Positions 2,492-60,593 of a DNA stretch of 64,000 nt are shown here, piece after piece. How positions within the stretch are numbered: position 1 is the first letter of the stretch; every line of letters starts with the position of its first letter. A program made the position numbers and the translations under genes. The DNA is taken from the NCBI RefSeq assembly GCF_900119895.1, contig NZ_FQLR01000004.1:1426001-1490000 (forward strand). The letters are read 5' to 3'. Under the pieces are notes generated by a model. It was not told the origin of the DNA and did no database searches. It saw nothing but the letters and a program-made list of their open reading frames with translations. Source of the stretch: Collinsella phocaeensis. Lineage in GTDB: Bacteria > Actinomycetota > Coriobacteriia > Coriobacteriales > Coriobacteriaceae.

Positions 2492-2563
2492 ATGATCTCG
2501 AACGTTTCCGTTTCCCTCAACAACTGGTGGTGGCGTGATGCGATTGCGGTCGGTCGACTGTAG
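2492..2563 (+). CDS. Tryptophan leader peptide (23 aa) of the ECF importer operon
   Basis: A 23-codon ORF with three consecutive Trp codons at 2525-2533 (context NNWWWRD), ending in TAG at 2561-2563. AAAGGAG at 2477-2483 lies 8 nt before the ATG, an excellent ribosome site for a peptide this small. Trp is rare in average proteins, so three in a row directly ahead of an attenuator-like RNA is the signature of a ribosome-stalling leader of the trpL type. Its role is regulatory: the moving ribosome reports on charged tRNA-Trp. It is too short for ordinary gene callers. Leader peptides of this kind are known ahead of trp genes in Actinobacteria and enterics; here the target is a transporter. Confidence 0.85.
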   Translation: MISNVSVSLNNWWWRDAIAVGRL

Positions 2564-2625
2564 GCTCCCTCACGCCTGTTTTCATCAGCATTCGTGAAGC
2601 CTCCGGTTTGACCGGGGGCTTTTTT
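2532..2625 (+). promoter_or_regulatory. Ribosome-mediated transcription attenuator (Trp)
   Basis: Three mutually exclusive stems can be drawn. Stem 1:2 pairs GGCGTGA (2532-2538, overlapping the third Trp codon) with TCACGCC (2570-2576). Stem 2:3, the antiterminator, pairs TCACG (2570-2574) plus GGCT (2563-2566) with CGTGAAGCC (2593-2601). Stem 3:4 is a terminator: AGCCTCCGGT (2598-2607) with ACCGGGGGCT (2611-2620), one G-U pair, then six T (2620-2625). A ribosome stalled on the Trp codons masks segment 1, frees 2:3 and permits read-through. A ribosome that reaches the stop codon covers segment 2 and lets the terminator form. Confidence 0.85.
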
Positions 2626-2700: not shown

Positions 2701-3264
2701 ATGGACACCCCGACCACCCAGCCCCGCACCGTCTCGACTTCTCAGCAGGAGGGCGGCCTCGACATCCGCTCCCTCGTCCTGCTCGCCATCCTGCTCGCCG
2801 CCGGGTTCATCCTCAACTTCACCGTCGGCCGCGCGATCTCGAGCGTCTCCGGCGGCCTCATCAGCCCCGAGTTCATCATCTCCGCCTTCTGCCTCACCAT
2901 CCTCATCGTCCGCCCGAGTGCGGCCCAGGCCCTCGCCATCGGCCTCATCTCGGCCGCCGTCATCCAGGTGACCACCACCTCCCCGTTCATCGACTTCGCC
3001 GCCGAAGGCGTCGCGGCCGTCGTCATGGCGCTCATCGTCAAGGCGGGCATGCGCGTCGGCGGCGAGAAGCTCGTCCCGCTCGTGGGGACCTTCGTCACGA
3101 CCGTCCTGTCCGGTCTCGTCTTCATGGTGATCAAGATGGCCCTCATCGGCGCGGTCATGGAGCTCGCCGCCGCCATGGTGCCCGTCATCGTGGCGACCGC
3201 CGTGTTCAACGCCATCCTCGTCCAAGCGCTCTACATCCCGCTGCGCCGCGTCCTCAAGGCTTAA
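2701..3264 (+). CDS. ECF transporter S component 1 (predicted tryptophan-specific)
   Basis: A 187-residue, highly hydrophobic membrane protein with about six predicted helices. It fits the size and layout of an ECF S component, the substrate-binding subunit that docks on a shared T/A/A' module. The ATG at 2701 follows GAAAGGAAG; an in-frame GTG/TTG start further upstream would fall in the attenuator and is rejected. It resembles TrpP-type proteins in general character (IRSLVLLAILLAAGFILNFTVG). The Trp leader upstream makes tryptophan or a close relative the most likely substrate, by inference. The next gene is an obvious paralogue. The fused ATPase and T subunit follow, so the operon is a self-contained importer. 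Confidence 0.8.
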   Translation: MDTPTTQPRTVSTSQQEGGLDIRSLVLLAILLAAGFILNFTVGRAISSVSGGLISPEFIISAFCLTILIVRPSAAQALAIGLISAAVIQVTTTSPFIDFAAEGVAAVVMALIVKAGMRVGGEKLVPLVGTFVTTVLSGLVFMVIKMALIGAVMELAAAMVPVIVATAVFNAILVQALYIPLRRVLKA

Positions 3265-3341: not shown

Positions 3342-3896
3342 ATGGACATCGATCCCAGCACCCAGGCGCGCACCGTCGCCTCCCCCATCCGCCGCGAAGC
3401 CGCCATCGGCTCGCTCGTCCTGCTCGCCGTCCTGCTCGCCGCCGGCTTCATCCTCAACCTGACCGTCGGCAACGCGCTCGCCGCCACCGGCATCAAGCCG
3501 CAGTTCATCATCTCGGCCTACACGCTCGCCATCCTGCTCACGAGTGCCGACGTGAGCCAGGCGGCCGTCTTCGGCCTCATCTCCGCCGCCGTGATCCAGT
3601 TCTCCACGTCCATCCCCGGGCTCAACTTCGCCACGGAACTCGCAGGGGCGACGTGCGCCGCCCTGATCGGACGGGCGGGCCTGCGCATCGCCGGGCGCGA
3701 CGTGACGCCCCTGGCGGCGGGCGGCCTCGCCACGCTCGTCTCCGGCACTCTCTTCGCCGTCGCCGGAACCCTGCTCATGGGCGCCGCGCTCCCCACCGTG
3801 CTGGTGAAGGTCCCGCTCGTGCTGGGAACCGCCGTCTTCAACGCGCTGGTCGTCCAGTGCCTCAGCGCCCCGCTGCGCGCCGCGCTCAACCGATAG
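3342..3896 (+). CDS. ECF transporter S component 2, paralogue of the preceding gene
   Basis: A 184-residue integral membrane protein clearly homologous to the preceding gene along its length. Shared blocks include SLVLLA.LLAAGFILN.TVG, FIISA, GLISAAVIQ and a common C-terminal GTAVFNAL.VQ-type segment. The ATG at 3342 is chosen because AGGAG lies 6 nt upstream and the resulting N-terminus (MD..P.TQ.RTV) lines up with that of the paralogue; the ATG at 3324 lacks this. Two S components ahead of one energising module suggest either two related substrates or a two-S complex. Substrate is not proven. A GC-rich hairpin (3909-3933) separates it from the ATPase gene. Confidence 0.8.
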   Translation: MDIDPSTQARTVASPIRREAAIGSLVLLAVLLAAGFILNLTVGNALAATGIKPQFIISAYTLAILLTSADVSQAAVFGLISAAVIQFSTSIPGLNFATELAGATCAALIGRAGLRIAGRDVTPLAAGGLATLVSGTLFAVAGTLLMGAALPTVLVKVPLVLGTAVFNALVVQCLSAPLRAALNR

Positions 3897-3959: not shown

Positions 3960-5729
3960 ATGGAACCGATCATCAGCATCGAACACGTTACGTTCCGCTA
4001 TGCGGACGCCACCGACCCCGCGCTCGTCGACATCGACCTCTCCATATCCGAGGGAAGCGTCGTCGGCGTCGTCGCGGCGGCGGGCGCCGGCAAGTCGACC
4101 CTCGCGGCGCTGCTCTCGGGAGCCGCGCCGCACCACTATGCCGGCGAGTTCTTCGGCGCCGTCCGCATCGCGGGCGCAGACACCTGCGACGTCTCGCTGA
4201 CCGACATCTCGCGCACGGTCGCAAGCGTCAGCCAGGACATCGATGCCCAGATGGTCGCATCCGTCGTCGAGGACGAGATCCTGTTCGGCCTCGAGAACTT
4301 CGGCGTGCCACACGATGAGATCGAGGGCAGGCTCGTCAGCGCGCTCGAGAACGTGGGCATCGCCGATCTCCGCGACCGTGAGATCGCGACGCTCTCGGGC
4401 GGCCAGAAGCAGAAAGTCGCCATCGCCGCCGCCCTCGCCCTTCGGCCCCGCGTGCTCGTGCTCGACGAACCCACCGCCGCGCTCGACCCCGTCAGCTCCC
4501 GTTCGGTTTTCGAGACCCTGCGGCGCGTCAACCGCGATCACGGCGTCACCGTCATCGTGATCGAGCAGGCAGTCGCCCTGCTGTCCGCCTATTGCGACCG
4601 CGTCGTCGTGCTCGATCACGGACGCGTCGCCCTCGACGGCGGCCCGCGCGAGGTCTTCGCGCAAGGCACGCGGCTGCGCCGGATCGGTGTCGACAGCCCA
4701 CGGTGCGCGCGCATCTCCAACAGTCTCGCTGCGGAAGGAATCCTCGAGGATCCCCTTCCGGCCCTCGACGTGGCATCGGCGCTCGCGCAGATCGATCGGA
4801 TCCTGCGCGCCCACGGGGTCGAGCCCGAGCCCCGCGCGACGGGCGCGGCGCGACCCCGCGTCCGCACCGCGGCGGGAGCAGGCGAGCCGGGCCCCGCTCC
4901 GCGCCCCGCGGTCCTGGAGCTGTCCGGCGTGGATTTCCGCTATCCTGCGGGCGGAGCCGGGGTGAGCGACCTCGCGCTCACAGTGCGCGCCGGCGAGATC
5001 ATGGGCGTCGTTGGCCAGAACGGAGCGGGCAAGACCACCCTCACCAAGCTCGTCAACGGCCTGCTCAAACCCTCGCGCGGCAGCGTCGTCGCGGCCGGCA
5101 TGGATACCGTCTCCGTCCCCGTCTCGAAACTCGCGACCCGCGTCGCCACGCTCTTCCAGAACCCGGACCGGCAGCTCTGCCAAAACACCGTCCTCGACGA
5201 AGTCGCCTTCGGGCTCATGCTGCACGGCACGCCGCGCGACGAGGCCCTGGAGCGCGCCCGGGCGGTCATCGACCGTTTCGGCCTTCCGGCTGCGGAAGCC
5301 CCCTTCTCGCTGTCGCGCGGCCAGCGCCAGCTGGTCGCCCTCGCGAGCACGGTCGTCCTCGACCCGGCCCTGGTGATCCTCGACGAGCCCACGAGCGGAC
5401 TCGACTACCGTGAATGCATGACCGTCATGGGGACCGTTCGCGAGATGGCGGAGCGCGGCTGCGGCGTGCTCATGGTCTGCCACGACATGGAGGTCGTCTC
5501 GGATTTCGCCGACCGGATCGCGGTCATGGCAGACGGCCGCATGCTCGCTTGCGGCCCCTCGCACGAGATCTTCTCCGACGCCGACCTCATGGCGCGCGCC
5601 TCGATTGCGCCCCCGAACGTGATCGACCTGGCCGCACGGCTTGCCGCCGAGGGCTATACCGCCTTCGCCGGCATCGAAGAGGTGTCGGGGATCGTCGACA
5701 CCGTGAAGGAGCTGATCTTCCATGACTAA
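3960..5729 (+). CDS. ECF transporter ATPase, two nucleotide-binding domains fused
   Basis: A 589-residue cytoplasmic ATPase that powers the importer. Domain 1 (about residues 1-240) has Walker A AAAGAGKST, signature LSGGQKQ and Walker B VLVLDEPTA. Domain 2 (about 315-560) has Walker A GQNGAGKTT, signature LSRGQRQ and Walker B LVILDEPTS, so the second signature is slightly atypical (R for G). In many bacteria the two ATPases are separate genes (EcfA1, EcfA2); here one chain carries both, joined by an Ala/Pro/Arg-rich linker. AGGAAGG precedes the ATG. The 3' end overlaps the T-component start by 8 nt, consistent with translational coupling. Confidence 0.92.
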   Translation: MEPIISIEHVTFRYADATDPALVDIDLSISEGSVVGVVAAAGAGKSTLAALLSGAAPHHYAGEFFGAVRIAGADTCDVSLTDISRTVASVSQDIDAQMVASVVEDEILFGLENFGVPHDEIEGRLVSALENVGIADLRDREIATLSGGQKQKVAIAAALALRPRVLVLDEPTAALDPVSSRSVFETLRRVNRDHGVTVIVIEQAVALLSAYCDRVVVLDHGRVALDGGPREVFAQGTRLRRIGVDSPRCARISNSLAAEGILEDPLPALDVASALAQIDRILRAHGVEPEPRATGAARPRVRTAAGAGEPGPAPRPAVLELSGVDFRYPAGGAGVSDLALTVRAGEIMGVVGQNGAGKTTLTKLVNGLLKPSRGSVVAAGMDTVSVPVSKLATRVATLFQNPDRQLCQNTVLDEVAFGLMLHGTPRDEALERARAVIDRFGLPAAEAPFSLSRGQRQLVALASTVVLDPALVILDEPTSGLDYRECMTVMGTVREMAERGCGVLMVCHDMEVVSDFADRIAVMADGRMLACGPSHEIFSDADLMARASIAPPNVIDLAARLAAEGYTAFAGIEEVSGIVDTVKELIFHD

Positions 5730-6468
5730 CGTCATCGACTACCTTCCGGGCGAAACCGTCCTGCACCGCCTGAACCCGGTCGCCAAGCTCGCGCTCGCCG
5801 CATGCATCATCCTTGCGACCTTTCTGGCCCAAAGCTTCCCCGCGCTCGTGGGGCTGCTCGCGCTCACGCTCTGCATGGGCGCCTACGCAGGATCCCTCGA
5901 ACGTCTTCTCGCGCTGCTCAAAGTGCTCGTTCCGCTCGGCGTCCTCATGCTCGTCCTGCAGACGCTCTTCGTGCGCACGGGGACCCCGCTCGCGCTCGGC
6001 ATCACCGACGAGGGGCTCGCGTCCGGAGCGCGCACGGCGCTGCGGCTGCTCGGCGTGGCGCTTCCGCTCATCCTCATGCTCACGGTCACGAAGCTCAACG
6101 ACCTCGCCAACGCATGCGTCGAGGTGCTCCACGTGCCCTACCGCTACGCCTTCACCTTCACCACCGCGCTGCGCTTCGTCCCGGTCTTCTCCCAGGAGAT
6201 GAACGCGATCATGGAGGCGCAGACCGCGCGCGGGGTGGAGTACGACACCCGAAACCCCATCAAGAAGCTGCGCCTCATGCTGCCGCTCTGCGTGCCCCTG
6301 CTTATCTCGAGCGTCGGCAAGACCGACGCCTGCGCGCTCGCGGCCGAGCAGCGCGGCTTCTACCTCAGGACGCGTGCGAGCAGCTACAAGCGCTACCCCC
6401 TGCGCGCCCTCGATGCCGGGGCGCTGGCGCTTGGCGTCGCGCTCGTTGCGGCCGCAGCGCTCCTGTAG
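5722..6468 (+). CDS. ecfT: ECF transporter transmembrane (T) component
   Basis: A 248-residue membrane protein of the CbiQ/EcfT family that couples the ATPases to the S components. It starts DYLPGETVLHRLNPVAKL, a recognisable EcfT opening, with several hydrophobic helices and two Ala-Arg-Gly-type coupling motifs in the cytoplasmic region: QTARGVEYDTRNP near residue 170 and AEQRGFYLRTRAS near 210. The ATG lies inside the end of the ATPase gene (8-nt overlap), so it is the last gene of the Trp-attenuated operon. A weak hairpin follows at 6484-6511. Confidence 0.9.
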   Translation: MTNVIDYLPGETVLHRLNPVAKLALAACIILATFLAQSFPALVGLLALTLCMGAYAGSLERLLALLKVLVPLGVLMLVLQTLFVRTGTPLALGITDEGLASGARTALRLLGVALPLILMLTVTKLNDLANACVEVLHVPYRYAFTFTTALRFVPVFSQEMNAIMEAQTARGVEYDTRNPIKKLRLMLPLCVPLLISSVGKTDACALAAEQRGFYLRTRASSYKRYPLRALDAGALALGVALVAAAALL

Positions 6469-9429: not shown

Positions 9430-9900
9430 TCAGGCGTCCGCGCCCGGGTCCCCGGCGCCACCGAAGGCGGACGCATCGATATGGATGTCGAGCTCGGGCA
9501 CATGGGCCAGGTCGGCGAGCGAGACACCGTCGACGTACGCATCGATGGCGGCCTCGAGCCCCGTCCAGAACTTGACCGTGGAGCAGAGGTCCGCACGACC
9601 GCACGAGCCCTCGAGCCCGTCGCAGGCGACGGCGGCCGTGGAGCCCTCCGCCGCTCGCAGGATCTCGCCCGCGCTGATATCGCCCGCCGGGCGGGCGAGC
9701 ATGTAGCCGCCACCCTTGCCGCGCACGCTGCGCAGCAGGCCCGCGGCCATGAGCGGGCGGACGAGCTGCTCGAGATATTTGAGCGAGATGCTCTCGCGCT
9801 CGGCGACCTCGCGCAGGGCGATCTTGCCCTCATCGTCGCCGAACGCGGCGATGAAAATCATGAGGCGCAGCGCGTAGCGCCCCTTAGAGGAAATGAGCAC
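9430..9900 (-). CDS. Rrf2-family Fe-S-sensing transcriptional regulator (IscR/SufR-like)
   Basis: A 156-residue regulator with an N-terminal winged helix-turn-helix (ISSKGRYALRLMIFIA... LREVAERESISLKYLEQL). Three cysteines follow in CDGLEGSCGRADLC, close to the C-x5-C-x5-C cluster ligand set of IscR, so it likely binds a [2Fe-2S] cluster. The GTG at 9900 is preferred because GGGAGG lies just upstream; the longer frame to 9942 has no ribosome site. It is divergent from sufC across about 175 bp holding a promoter flanked by an inverted repeat. By family knowledge it should repress or tune suf expression according to Fe-S status. Confidence 0.88.
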   Translation of the reverse strand: MLISSKGRYALRLMIFIAAFGDDEGKIALREVAERESISLKYLEQLVRPLMAAGLLRSVRGKGGGYMLARPAGDISAGEILRAAEGSTAAVACDGLEGSCGRADLCSTVKFWTGLEAAIDAYVDGVSLADLAHVPELDIHIDASAFGGAGDPGADA

Positions 9901-9967
9901 GTCTGCCTCCCTCGATTCATGTCGGCGCCCCACGCGGCCCATGCCGTCGCTTAATCTTAGTGGAGCA

Positions 9968-10017
9968 CTCGGGTTAAAGCTTGACTCATGCGCGGTTCAT
10001 CTTATCCTTAATCCGAG
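9968..10017 (+). promoter_or_regulatory. suf promoter flanked by an inverted repeat (candidate Rrf2 operator)
   Basis: TTGACT (9981-9986) and TATCCT (10003-10008) are spaced 16 bp and point to sufC. The pair is bracketed by CTCGGGTTAA (9968-9977) and TTAATCCGAG (10008-10017), inverted repeats that match at 9 of 10 positions. Their placement over the -35 flank and -10/start region would let a dimer block the promoter. The neighbouring Rrf2 gene is the obvious candidate; no binding is proven. Confidence 0.5.
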
Positions 10018-10075
10018 AGAATTCCTAGAGATTAGCCGCCTCGGCTCTGATCGAACCATTCGAGAGGGGACCTCG

Positions 10076-10855
10076 ATGTCAACGAACCCGCTGCTCAGCA
10101 TCAACAACCTTACAGCATCCGTCGACGAGAAGACCATTCTGCACGGCATTGACCTCAATGTCGCGCCCGGCGAGACCCATGTCCTCATGGGCCCCAACGG
10201 CGCCGGCAAGTCCACCATGGGCCATGTCATCATGGGCGACCCGGTCTACACCGTGAACGAGGGCTCCATAACCTTCGACGGCGCCGATATCACCGAGCTC
10301 ACGCCCGACAAGCGCTCCCGCGCCGGCCTCTTCCTCTCCTTCCAGGCGCCCGTGGAGATCCCCGGCGTGCCGCTGTCCAGCTTCCTGCGCGCGCAGATCG
10401 CCGGGCGCCCCGGCCTCGAGATGCGCGGCAAGGAGTTCCGTCGCCGCGTGAAGGAGCTCGCCGCCGAGCTCAGCATGGACACCGCCTATCTCAACCGCGA
10501 GCTGGGTGTCGGCTTCTCCGGCGGAGAGAAGAAGAAGGTCGAGATGCTGCAGCTGCTGCTGCTCCAACCCAAGCTCGCCGTCCTCGACGAGACCGACTCG
10601 GGACTCGACGTCGATGCGCTCGGCGTGGTGTCGCGCGGCATGGACGCCTACCGCAAGGCCACCGACGGCTCGCTGATCATCATCACCCACAACACGCGCA
10701 TCCTCGAGCACCTCGAGGTCGACCGCGTCCACGTCATGGTCGACGGACGCATCGTCCGCGAAGACGACGCGTCCCTCATCCCCTGGATCGACGCGAACGG
10801 CTTCGACTCCTTCGAGCGCGAGGCCGCCGCGGCCGCCGCGGGCGAGACCCGCTAG
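10076..10855 (+). CDS. sufC: SUF system ATPase SufC
   Basis: A 259-residue ABC-type ATPase that drives Fe-S assembly on the SufBCD scaffold. Walker A is GPNGAGKST near residue 40, signature FSGGEKKK near 145, Walker B LAVLDETDSGLD (D-E-T-D is the SufC-specific form) and the switch ITHNTRIL. The ATG at 10076 follows GAGAGGGGACC. It is the first gene of sufC-B-D-S. The order C-B-D-S-U is the common one in Gram-positive bacteria. No membrane segment; it acts in the cytosol with SufB and SufD. Confidence 0.96.
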   Translation: MSTNPLLSINNLTASVDEKTILHGIDLNVAPGETHVLMGPNGAGKSTMGHVIMGDPVYTVNEGSITFDGADITELTPDKRSRAGLFLSFQAPVEIPGVPLSSFLRAQIAGRPGLEMRGKEFRRRVKELAAELSMDTAYLNRELGVGFSGGEKKKVEMLQLLLLQPKLAVLDETDSGLDVDALGVVSRGMDAYRKATDGSLIIITHNTRILEHLEVDRVHVMVDGRIVREDDASLIPWIDANGFDSFEREAAAAAAGETR

Positions 10856-10866
10856 GAGGTCCATCC

Positions 10867-12279
10867 ATGGCAAAGAACCGCACCGAGGTCGCGGACATCG
10901 ACCGCAGCCTCTACGATTTCTCCTACGGGGAGGAAGGCTTCGAGCGCCTGGACGCCGGCCTCACCCCCGACATCGTGACCGAGATATCGCAGCGCAAGAA
11001 CGAGCCGCGGTGGATGCTCGACCTGCGCCTCAAGTCCCTCGAGATCTACCATCGCATGCCCAACCCCACCTGGGGCCCCGGCATCGAAGGCCTCGACATG
11101 GACAACATCGTCACGTACGTGAAGCCCAACACCGAGCAGAAGAACGACTGGGACTCCGTGCCCGACGACATCAAGGACACCTTCGAGCGCCTGGGCATCC
11201 CCGAGGCCGAGCGCAGCTACCTGGCCGGCGTGGGCGCGCAGTACGACTCCGAGCTCGTGTACCACAACATGCAGGACACCGCCGCCAAGATGGGCATCGT
11301 CTACTCCGGCATCGAGGAGGCGCTGCACGAGCCCAAGTGGGAGGCGATCATCCGCGAGAAGTTCATGACGCTCATCCCGCCCACCGACCACAAGTTCGCC
11401 GCGCTGCACGGCGCCGTGTGGTCCGGCGGCTCCTTCGTCTACGTGCCGAAGGGCGTCAAGCTCGACTTCCCGCTGCAGAGCTACTTCCGCCTGAACGCCA
11501 AGGGCGCCGGCCAGTTCGAGCACACGCTCATCGTGGTCGAGGACGATGCCGACCTGCACTTCATCGAGGGCTGCTCCGCGCCCAAGTACAACGTCGCCAA
11601 CCTGCACGCCGGCGCCGTCGAGCTCTTCGTGGGCAAACGCGCCCACTTGCGCTACTCGACCATCGAGAACTGGTCGAAGAACATGTACAACCTCAACACC
11701 AAGCGCGCGCGATGCGAGGAGGAGGGCGAGATCGAGTGGATCTCGGGCTCCTTCGGCAGCCACGTGGGCTACCTCTACCCCATGAGCGTGCTCGCCGGCC
11801 GCAAGAGCCGCTCGAACTTCACCGGCATCACCTTCGCCGGCACCGGCCAGAACCTGGACACGGGCTGCAAGGTCGTGCTCGGCGCTCCGGACACCACCGC
11901 CACGGTCGAGACCAAGTCGATCTCCAAGGGCGGCGGCATCTCCACGTTCCGCAGTTCCATCGTGGCCACGCCGGCCGCTGAGGGCGCCGCAGCGAGCGTG
12001 TCCTGCCAATCGCTCATGCTCGACGACATCTCGCGCTCCGACACCATCCCGGCGATGGACATCCGAGCCAAGAACGTCGACATCGGCCACGAGGCCACGA
12101 TCGGCCGCATCGGCGACGACAAGATCTTCTACCTCATGAGCCGCGGCATCTCCGAGGAGGAGGCCCGCACCATGATCGTCAACGGATTTGCGAACCCCGT
12201 CTCCAAGGAGCTTCCCCTCGAGTACGCGGTCGAGATGAACAACCTGATCAAGCTCGAGATGGAAGGGGCGATCGGATAA
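10867..12279 (+). CDS. sufB: Fe-S scaffold protein SufB
   Basis: A 470-residue scaffold subunit on which nascent clusters form. Highly typical blocks are visible: YDFSYGEEGFERLDAGL near the start, FMTLIPPTDHKFAALHGAVWSGGSF mid-protein, IEGCSAPKYNVANLHAGAVEL, and the C-terminal FYLMSRGISEEEARTMIVNGF. It starts 11 bp after sufC with AGGAGG in the gap. A 145-bp intergenic stretch with a structured repeat (12312-12397) separates it from sufD, unusually long for this operon. Confidence 0.97.
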   Translation: MAKNRTEVADIDRSLYDFSYGEEGFERLDAGLTPDIVTEISQRKNEPRWMLDLRLKSLEIYHRMPNPTWGPGIEGLDMDNIVTYVKPNTEQKNDWDSVPDDIKDTFERLGIPEAERSYLAGVGAQYDSELVYHNMQDTAAKMGIVYSGIEEALHEPKWEAIIREKFMTLIPPTDHKFAALHGAVWSGGSFVYVPKGVKLDFPLQSYFRLNAKGAGQFEHTLIVVEDDADLHFIEGCSAPKYNVANLHAGAVELFVGKRAHLRYSTIENWSKNMYNLNTKRARCEEEGEIEWISGSFGSHVGYLYPMSVLAGRKSRSNFTGITFAGTGQNLDTGCKVVLGAPDTTATVETKSISKGGGISTFRSSIVATPAAEGAAASVSCQSLMLDDISRSDTIPAMDIRAKNVDIGHEATIGRIGDDKIFYLMSRGISEEEARTMIVNGFANPVSKELPLEYAVEMNNLIKLEMEGAIG

Positions 12280-42482: not shown

Positions 42483-42690
42483 GCGGACTGAATCGGGGTC
42501 CGTAGCGGCCGCGAGGCTCCCCAAACCGGAATCGGGGACGACCGCGGACAAGGCCGGGCTTCAAGAGGGCCGCAAGGTTCCCCAAGCCGACAATGGGTGA
42601 CGCCTGCGGACGAATCCGAGGCCCATAGCGGCCGTAAGGTTCCCCAAGCCGGCATCCGGAGGCGTTTCCGGACGCCACGGCCGCATACGA
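42483..42690. repeat. Degenerate ~61-62-bp tandem repeat (three and a half units)
   Basis: Units begin with (G/C)CGGAC at 42483, 42544, 42606 and about 42668. Each holds a conserved block like AGCGGCCGTAAGGTTCCCC followed by AAGCCGGNAT. It fills the middle of a 707-bp gap (42148-42854) that otherwise has no supported gene; open frames across it merely reflect the repeat and GC bias. Confidence 0.6.
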
Positions 42691-60403: not shown

Positions 60404-60451
60404 AATGATCTCCCTAGATTCCCAGTGACCATTTCACGTGGAGTTAGTCAT

Positions 60452-60505
60452 CTACTTATTCCACTTATTCTAGTTATTCTACTTATTTGAATTATTCTAC
60501 TTATT
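60452..60505. repeat. Six phased 9-bp tandem repeats (CTACTTATT)
   Basis: Consecutive 9-mers from 60452: CTACTTATT, CCACTTATT, CTAGTTATT, CTACTTATT, TGAATTATT, CTACTTATT. On the minus strand they read AATAAGTAG and each contains a TAGAAT-like hexamer at the junction. Located just upstream of the ATPase gene. Possible operator, iteron or target array. Confidence 0.8.
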
Positions 60506-60593
60506 CAGTCACATCGGGTACGCGAGAACCTTTGATGACCGTAGGCCCGCCCTCGAACACAACCCCCGTCGTAGTTGCGTTCTGGTCGGACAT
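60501..60593 (-). pseudogene. 30-codon ORF, possible remnant of a displaced gene
   Basis: Reads MSDQNATTTGVVFEGG then PTVIKGSRVPDVTE and stop. The sequence looks protein-like rather than random GC frame, and the stop falls in the 9-bp repeats. The frame is open a little further upstream (VHLFR). It may be the 3' end of a gene lost at the island boundary. No family recognised. Confidence 0.3.

Follow-up and report, generated by a model that had tools for sequence, protein, structure and literature searches.

A putative leader-peptide attenuator responsive to tRNA-Trp charging ahead of a TrpP-like ECF importer operon in Collinsella phocaeensis

In Collinsella phocaeensis, a reading frame of 23 codons that contains three consecutive tryptophan codons stands ahead of an operon for an ECF importer. 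This arrangement raises two questions: whether the frame and the RNA around it adjust expression of the importer to the supply of tryptophan, and whether tryptophan is what the importer carries. The locus lies in a stretch of 64,000 nucleotides of the genome (contig NZ_FQLR01000004.1), all of which was analyzed and which is called the window below; coordinates are those of the window, and all features of the locus are on its + strand. Coriobacteriia, the class to which this organism belongs, include many human gut and oral bacteria. We conclude that the locus very probably attenuates transcription in response to the charging of tRNA-Trp and thereby controls a TrpP-like tryptophan ECF importer.

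The leader frame (2492-2563, with a TAG stop at 2561-2563) encodes MISNVSVSLNNWWWRDAIAVGRL and is preceded by AAAGGAG, a ribosome-binding site read from the sequence at 2477-2483. Its three tandem Trp codons, the presumed stall site, occupy 2525-2533, and the third is TGG in all 76 leaders aligned below. The NWWW motif presumably echoes actinobacterial TrpL. Across the 2.1 Mb genome, AACTGGTGGTGG occurs once, at this leader. The 141-nt leader folds better than its dinucleotide shuffles (z -2.6), with 2 of 200 shuffles doing as well. No Rfam family, Trp_leader included, matched anywhere in the window at gathering scores, and at E values up to 10 there were matches to four unrelated families only (best E 0.45); a T-box at this locus was rejected on these searches. 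No promoter-like site was detected. Between the terminator and the ribosome site of the first structural gene there is a run of ten C (2647-2656); none as long occurs among the other leader-to-S1 stretches compared, and it could be slippage-prone or an assembly effect.

Three mutually exclusive conformations were computed for the RNA of the window. A pause stem at 2532-2576, in which 2532-2538 pairs with 2570-2576, forms in the ribosome-free fold. An antiterminator, obtained by folding and alignment, spans 2551-2614 (2551-2574 with 2593-2614); its outer helix joins CGGUC (2551-2555) to GACCG (2610-2614), and its inner helices join 2556-2574 to 2593-2609. An intrinsic terminator at 2596-2625, found by a terminator scan and by folding, has a 12-pair stem (2596-2622) that runs into T6 (2620-2625). 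The scan and the folds bear out the original prediction of a 23-codon frame with Trp-Trp-Trp, a ribosome site, three exclusive stems and a T6 terminator. The structural marks of a trpL-type attenuator are present: a tandem-codon frame with its ribosome site, a terminator before the structural genes and, by computation, an antiterminator exclusive with it and released by a stall at the Trp codons.

Homologues of S1, the first gene of the operon, are present in 203 of the 396 Coriobacteriia genomes searched. We compared 89 homologous loci, comprising the 30 best-scoring S1 loci and 59 picked by hand for diversity from the list of 203 matching genomes. A WWW leader is found at 79 of them, a leader with two Trp codons at three (L033, L048 and L068), and a probable T-box at five (L070-L074). 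No sensor was found at the other two, L066 of Olsenella profusa and L065 of a congener, where the leader frame is absent upstream of the S gene and a terminator with GACCGGG is kept; both genomes have trpB over the cutoff. The original prediction had named homologous operons without leader Trp codons as evidence against it. Such operons do exist, as these two loci and as the T-box loci, and in the latter UGG lies in the specifier loop.

A further set of 80 named loci, kept from at least 284 relatives, gave 62 WWW leaders, one two-Trp leader, ten T-box motifs and seven loci with neither in the stretch searched. Of the last group, L171 and L185 have no more than 21 nt of upstream sequence, and in L190 a T-box lies beyond the stretch searched. 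L184 corresponds to the second S gene in the operon of L067, and L183 to the locus already counted as L066; for L172 and the Treponema locus L201, no sensor was found in the upstream stretch searched. At L172, where this stretch was 750 nt and contained neither a Trp leader nor a T-box motif, what resembles a gene for RNase P RNA lies 460 nt upstream of the S gene. The T-box of L190 (1108-1355) lies about 1.6 kb upstream of its S gene, so that this gene may belong, as one of the later ones, to a longer operon under T-box control.

The leader is also retained, as judged by coordinates, in eight relatives that have a trpB match over the cutoff. When the spaced leader pattern was sought in 12 trpB-bearing genomes, it was found at 14 places in 11 genomes. 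Nine of these places are S-operon leaders (eight by coordinates, and G277 C3 from reading downstream), and G157 C6, G301 C2 and G277 C9 stand outside the tally of leaders and chance matches. The matches in G178 and G169 precede a different locus, secretion-related by eye, and are probably due to chance.

Removal of six identical leaders, the five T-box loci and the two leaderless loci from the 89 left 76 distinct leaders for alignment. Six of these were added with relaxed terminator matching, and the register of the Trp block was set by hand for L033, L048 and L068, each of which lacks one of the three Trp codons. For the window, the antiterminator was folded from the RNA 3' of a ribosome stalled at the Trp codons and ending at 2614, and the terminator was folded with the first 54 nt of the segment masked, as by a ribosome at the stop codon. 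The footprint was assumed to reach about 15 nt downstream of a stalled codon and 12 nt at a stop.

Across the 76 leaders, the antiterminator formed in 71 of the stall-state folds ending at GACCG. The terminator formed in 76 of 76 folds in which the region up to the stop was masked, a treatment that excludes the antiterminator by construction. In ribosome-free folds, 68 of the 76 leaders had a stem comparable to the pause stem and covering the third Trp codon. GACCG contacted the first 20 nt of the stall-state stretch in 76 of 76 native folds versus 533 of 1520 folds of shuffled stretches, the shuffle routine yielding the original stretch on failure and being biased by this only toward a higher shuffled count. 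The antiterminator was already present in 48 of 76 folds of ribosome-free RNA ending at GACCG. In full-length RNA downstream of a stalled ribosome, the terminator is more stable than the antiterminator in 69 of 76 leaders; antitermination must therefore be kinetic, taking place before the 3' arm of the terminator is complete.

All 76 leaders have the antiterminator arm, [CT]GG[TC][CT], at one distance, its start lying 26 nt past the first codon of the aligned Trp block, and in all of them the stop codon falls in a single alignment column. The arm pairs with GACCG, a stretch shared by the loop and the 3' arm of the terminator, and at the five core positions this pairing holds in 378 of 380 cells. 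When seven pairs are considered, 91.2% of 532 cells are paired versus 11-45% for slid versions, with mismatches at pair 38-104 in 20 leaders and at pair 39-103 in 25. Covariation in relatives had been proposed as a check on the structure: the pairing of the arm proved conserved, but covariation proper is weak. Two of the seven pairs change on both sides, which is matched by 167 of 500 shuffles, and shuffled columns are 89.6% paired already; the covariation score of 0.144, versus 0.116, was reached by none of 500 shuffles in a control that ignores relatedness. It is therefore conservation, and not covariation, that carries the case for this pairing. G2610 is a loop base in the terminator of the window, yet its column is G in 76 of 76 leaders, an invariance that the antiterminator pairing explains.

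Codon choice in the arm points to a constraint at the level of RNA and not of peptide. At the arm, 75 of 76 leaders use GGT, a codon chosen for 10% of the glycines in the S genes of the same loci. The following codon, where it encodes Arg, is CGA in 52 of 58 leaders, against a CGA usage of 4%; in other leaders it is CAA or a TGA stop. In L105, L107 and L111 the frame ends four codons past WWW. Here it is an arm of unrelated sequence, CGGATYA, that pairs with the terminator loop; it lies outside the frame, at a distance of 25-26 nt from the first Trp codon.

These observations bear on a reading in which the conserved C-terminal VGR acts in the manner of TnaC, so that the nascent chain would be sensed instead of tRNA charging. 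The peptide after WWW looks conserved in many leaders, as such a reading has it, but the bias is one of codons, the position after GGT may be CGA, CAA or even a stop, and in the three loci with short frames the arm lies beyond the end of the frame. We rejected an arrest peptide on the codon bias and the short frames, and consider it very improbable. Nothing except the small size of the frame speaks for its being a chance frame ahead of an ordinary terminator, a view whose probability is negligible given a WWW leader at 79 of 89 homologous loci and a motif that is single in the genome. The leader might also be a relic, with the terminator by itself setting a constant low expression and no response to tryptophan, and the loci of O. 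profusa and its congener, which keep the terminator and have no leader, fit this idea. Fixed spacing, together with near-invariant Trp codons and a near-invariant arm across Coriobacteriaceae and Atopobiaceae (our assumed name for the group of Olsenella and Atopobium), is not expected without selection, and makes a relic highly unlikely. Attenuation through translation of the Trp codons is thus the preferred reading, and the leader-peptide attenuation of the original prediction is supported both by the Trp codons at the 79 loci and by probable T-boxes with UGG on homologous operons, described below.

In the attenuator that we propose, a shortage of charged tRNA-Trp would stall the ribosome at 2525-2533, where it would cover the 5' arm of the pause stem. 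CGGUC at 2551-2555, just past the footprint, would be left free to pair with GACCG (2610-2614), which spans part of the loop and 3' arm of the terminator. The inner helices would then capture the 5' arm of the terminator, and transcription would proceed into the structural genes. With tryptophan plentiful, a ribosome at the stop codon would mask the antiterminator arm, and the terminator would form.

The gene order after the leader is S1-S2-A-T. S1 (2701-3264) encodes a TrpP-like ECF S component and S2 (3342-3896) a second S component with 48% identity to it; A (3960-5729) is a fused double ECF ATPase, A-A', that matches TIGR04520 and TIGR04521 above cutoff, and T (5722-6468) is a CbiQ-type ECF T component (Pfam CbiQ, E 1e-28, above cutoff). 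The S-component fold, the A-A' ATPases and the T component that make up an ECF importer are thus found in one operon. Elsewhere in the window, genes at 9430-12279 look, from their translations and by eye, like an Rrf2-type regulator and SufC/SufB iron-sulphur genes. Tandem repeats are seen at 60451-60506 (TCTACTTAT, a nine-base unit in 6.2 copies) and at 42503-42656 (a 62-base unit in 2.5 copies).

S1 matches Pfam TrpP (PF17099) over most of its length with E 0.0025 and 18.1 bits, below the cutoff of 27.2, and S2 matches it with E 0.21; at E 0.001, PF17099 has no match in the genome of C. phocaeensis. A comparison of 57 diverse family members with TrpP gave matches at E up to 0.1 for 40 of them, the best at 1.1e-12. 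On these sequence comparisons S1 is likely homologous to TrpP, and we do not claim formal TrpP membership for it. Neither S1 nor S2 matched an NCBIfam model at E up to 1, and no solved structure was found by sequence search.

The structure model of S1 has six helices (pLDDT 91). A Foldseek search of this model against the PDB gave no match at E 0.001, and the call of an S-component fold therefore rests on VIA-align Z scores, which are 16.6 for PanT (rmsd 3.0, 173 aligned), 15.9 for the pantothenate ECF entry 4rfs and 14.4 for ThiT, to be read against a chance Z near 14 for helical bundles. The first 18 rows of that search comprise 17 S components and one CbiM chain (5x3x). S helix 1 carries an AXXXA motif, in which A29 is at least 90% conserved and A33 is invariant among the 57 members; AXXXA in this helix has been described as a contact with the T component (PMC11109136).

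An ECF transporter with two S components had been predicted, and it is present here as S1 and S2, but the pair is not the rule, two S matches being found in only 34 of the 203 genomes with a match; in one of these, G275, they may be one gene in two pieces. The pair had further been described as otherwise unassigned. This does not hold altogether, since both S components are distantly related to TrpP; S2, an occasional paralogue, may have another substrate. TrpP itself has been annotated, in one table row of PMC12021177, as the subunit that gives a tryptophan ECF transporter its substrate specificity, and PMC11487621 names tryptophan among the nutrients of ECF transporter uptake. The TrpP of Corynebacterium glutamicum, an SdpI-like protein according to PMC11995493, has no bearing on the S1 family.

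Models for trpA and trpB at E 0.001 found no match in the genome of the window, which is 98.8% complete, and the organism is therefore probably a tryptophan auxotroph dependent on import. Across genomes, the S gene and trpB occur together in 25, the S gene only in 178, trpB only in 108 and neither in 85 (p 6e-21, phylogeny ignored); since this p value ignores phylogeny, we gave the inverse association no weight.

Evidence on the cargo also comes from operons with T-boxes. A family search around G074 in the Raoultibacter group, which we take to be Eggerthellaceae, found the S gene in 94 of 138 genomes. Thirty loci were fetched from these 94 genomes, five of them repeating genomes among the 89 loci above; 26 have the T-box motif GGTGGCACCGC and four have a WWW leader. 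The specifier position, as placed by the Rfam alignment, is UGG in all 26 loci with the motif. The Rfam T-box model RF00230 matched in 21 of 21 Eggerthellaceae locus scans with 56-76 bits (E 1e-9 to 1e-14), below its gathering score of 93. It also matched in seven of ten further relatives, all seven being Clostridiales, Clostridia or Ruminococcus, and the two sets together range over 56-85 bits (E 1e-9 to 1e-17), again below the gathering score. In the three alignments inspected from these further relatives, the specifier follows GAA and reads UGG. Relatives in Gardnerella have a WWW leader of different sequence.

The presence of two unrelated devices, each probably tied to tRNA-Trp, on homologous importers is in our view the strongest evidence for tryptophan as the cargo, which the original prediction had thought likely and which the similarity to TrpP and the lack of a trpA or trpB match further support. 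What such a regulator reports is the charging of tRNA-Trp and not the cargo, however, and a real attenuator could govern the uptake, by S2 or by both S components, of a Trp-derived or Trp-sparing compound such as indole, a Trp dipeptide or another aromatic amino acid. S2 alone stands at E 0.21 to TrpP, and two S matches in 34 of 203 genomes leave room for divergence. Against this, UGG T-boxes and Trp leaders are found on one S family, that family matches TrpP, and a genome lacking trpA and trpB matches needs tryptophan itself; indole is of no use without trpB. We regard a cargo of this other kind as rather unlikely, and L-tryptophan as the probable one.

A quick tree, in which many forks are unresolved and the Gardnerella branch is long, requires at least three changes between T-box and leader. 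A wider reading of these sequences can be offered tentatively, with somewhat less than an even chance of holding in full. Tryptophan ECF importers may have swapped T-box and leader-peptide control at least three times, in a direction that is not fixed, and unrelated leaders may have converged on one layout, in which an arm 25-29 nt after the first Trp codon captures the terminator loop. The leader versions concerned are that of Coriobacteriaceae and Atopobiaceae, that of the Eggerthellaceae genus g42 and that of Gardnerella, whose arm, GTTTACTC, lies 29 nt from the first Trp codon. In the leader of the Eggerthellaceae locus L118, the arm starts by its fold 22 nt after the first Trp codon, outside this range, which lowers the probability of convergence a little. 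As far as the sequences tell, layout is what recurs among the leader versions, more than sequence. If the wider reading is true, the ribosome footprint would impose the spacing as a design rule, with which attenuators could be found de novo.

The proposed attenuator assigns a testable substrate, tryptophan, to a distant TrpP-like S family that is present in about half of the Coriobacteriia genomes searched. It suggests how members without trpB may adjust their uptake of tryptophan, a matter of relevance to the competition among gut bacteria for this amino acid. Two unrelated sensors of tRNA-Trp would thus sit on homologous operons, and the fixed distance from ribosome to antiterminator is a possible handle in searches for other attenuators. 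Among the open-access literature matches listed, none described an ECF importer controlled by a leader-peptide attenuator; this set does not extend to subscription papers, among them the original comparative genomics of ECF transporters. Within the same matches, the target class, the fixed spacing and the exchange with T-boxes are apparently new.

Several known systems resemble the present one in part. Bacillus TrpP (PF17099), which is under TRAP control, is probably a homologous S component with the same presumed substrate; S1 differs from it in falling below the cutoff, in having dedicated A and T genes in its operon and in its leader-peptide control. The Trp T-box (RF00230) likewise would sense tRNA-Trp and is found on homologous importer operons in Eggerthellaceae and Clostridia, but it acts without translation, uncharged tRNA pairing with the specifier codon. 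Leader attenuators in Corynebacterium and Streptomyces precede trp operons and trpS; like the present leader, they combine a run of two or three UGG codons with an antiterminator and a terminator (PMC1262725), and the word "transporter" is absent from the text of that paper. In contrast to those attenuators, the one described here precedes an ECF importer, its genome lacks a trpA or trpB match, and its antiterminator engages not only the 5' arm of the terminator but also the loop and part of the 3' arm. Finally, His T-boxes and His attenuators exchange on related targets in different lineages of Firmicutes, according to PMC9413887. In both cases different RNA devices serve one amino acid across lineages, but the Firmicutes exchange concerns histidine genes and hisXYZ transporters, whereas the one described here would concern tryptophan and an ECF importer.
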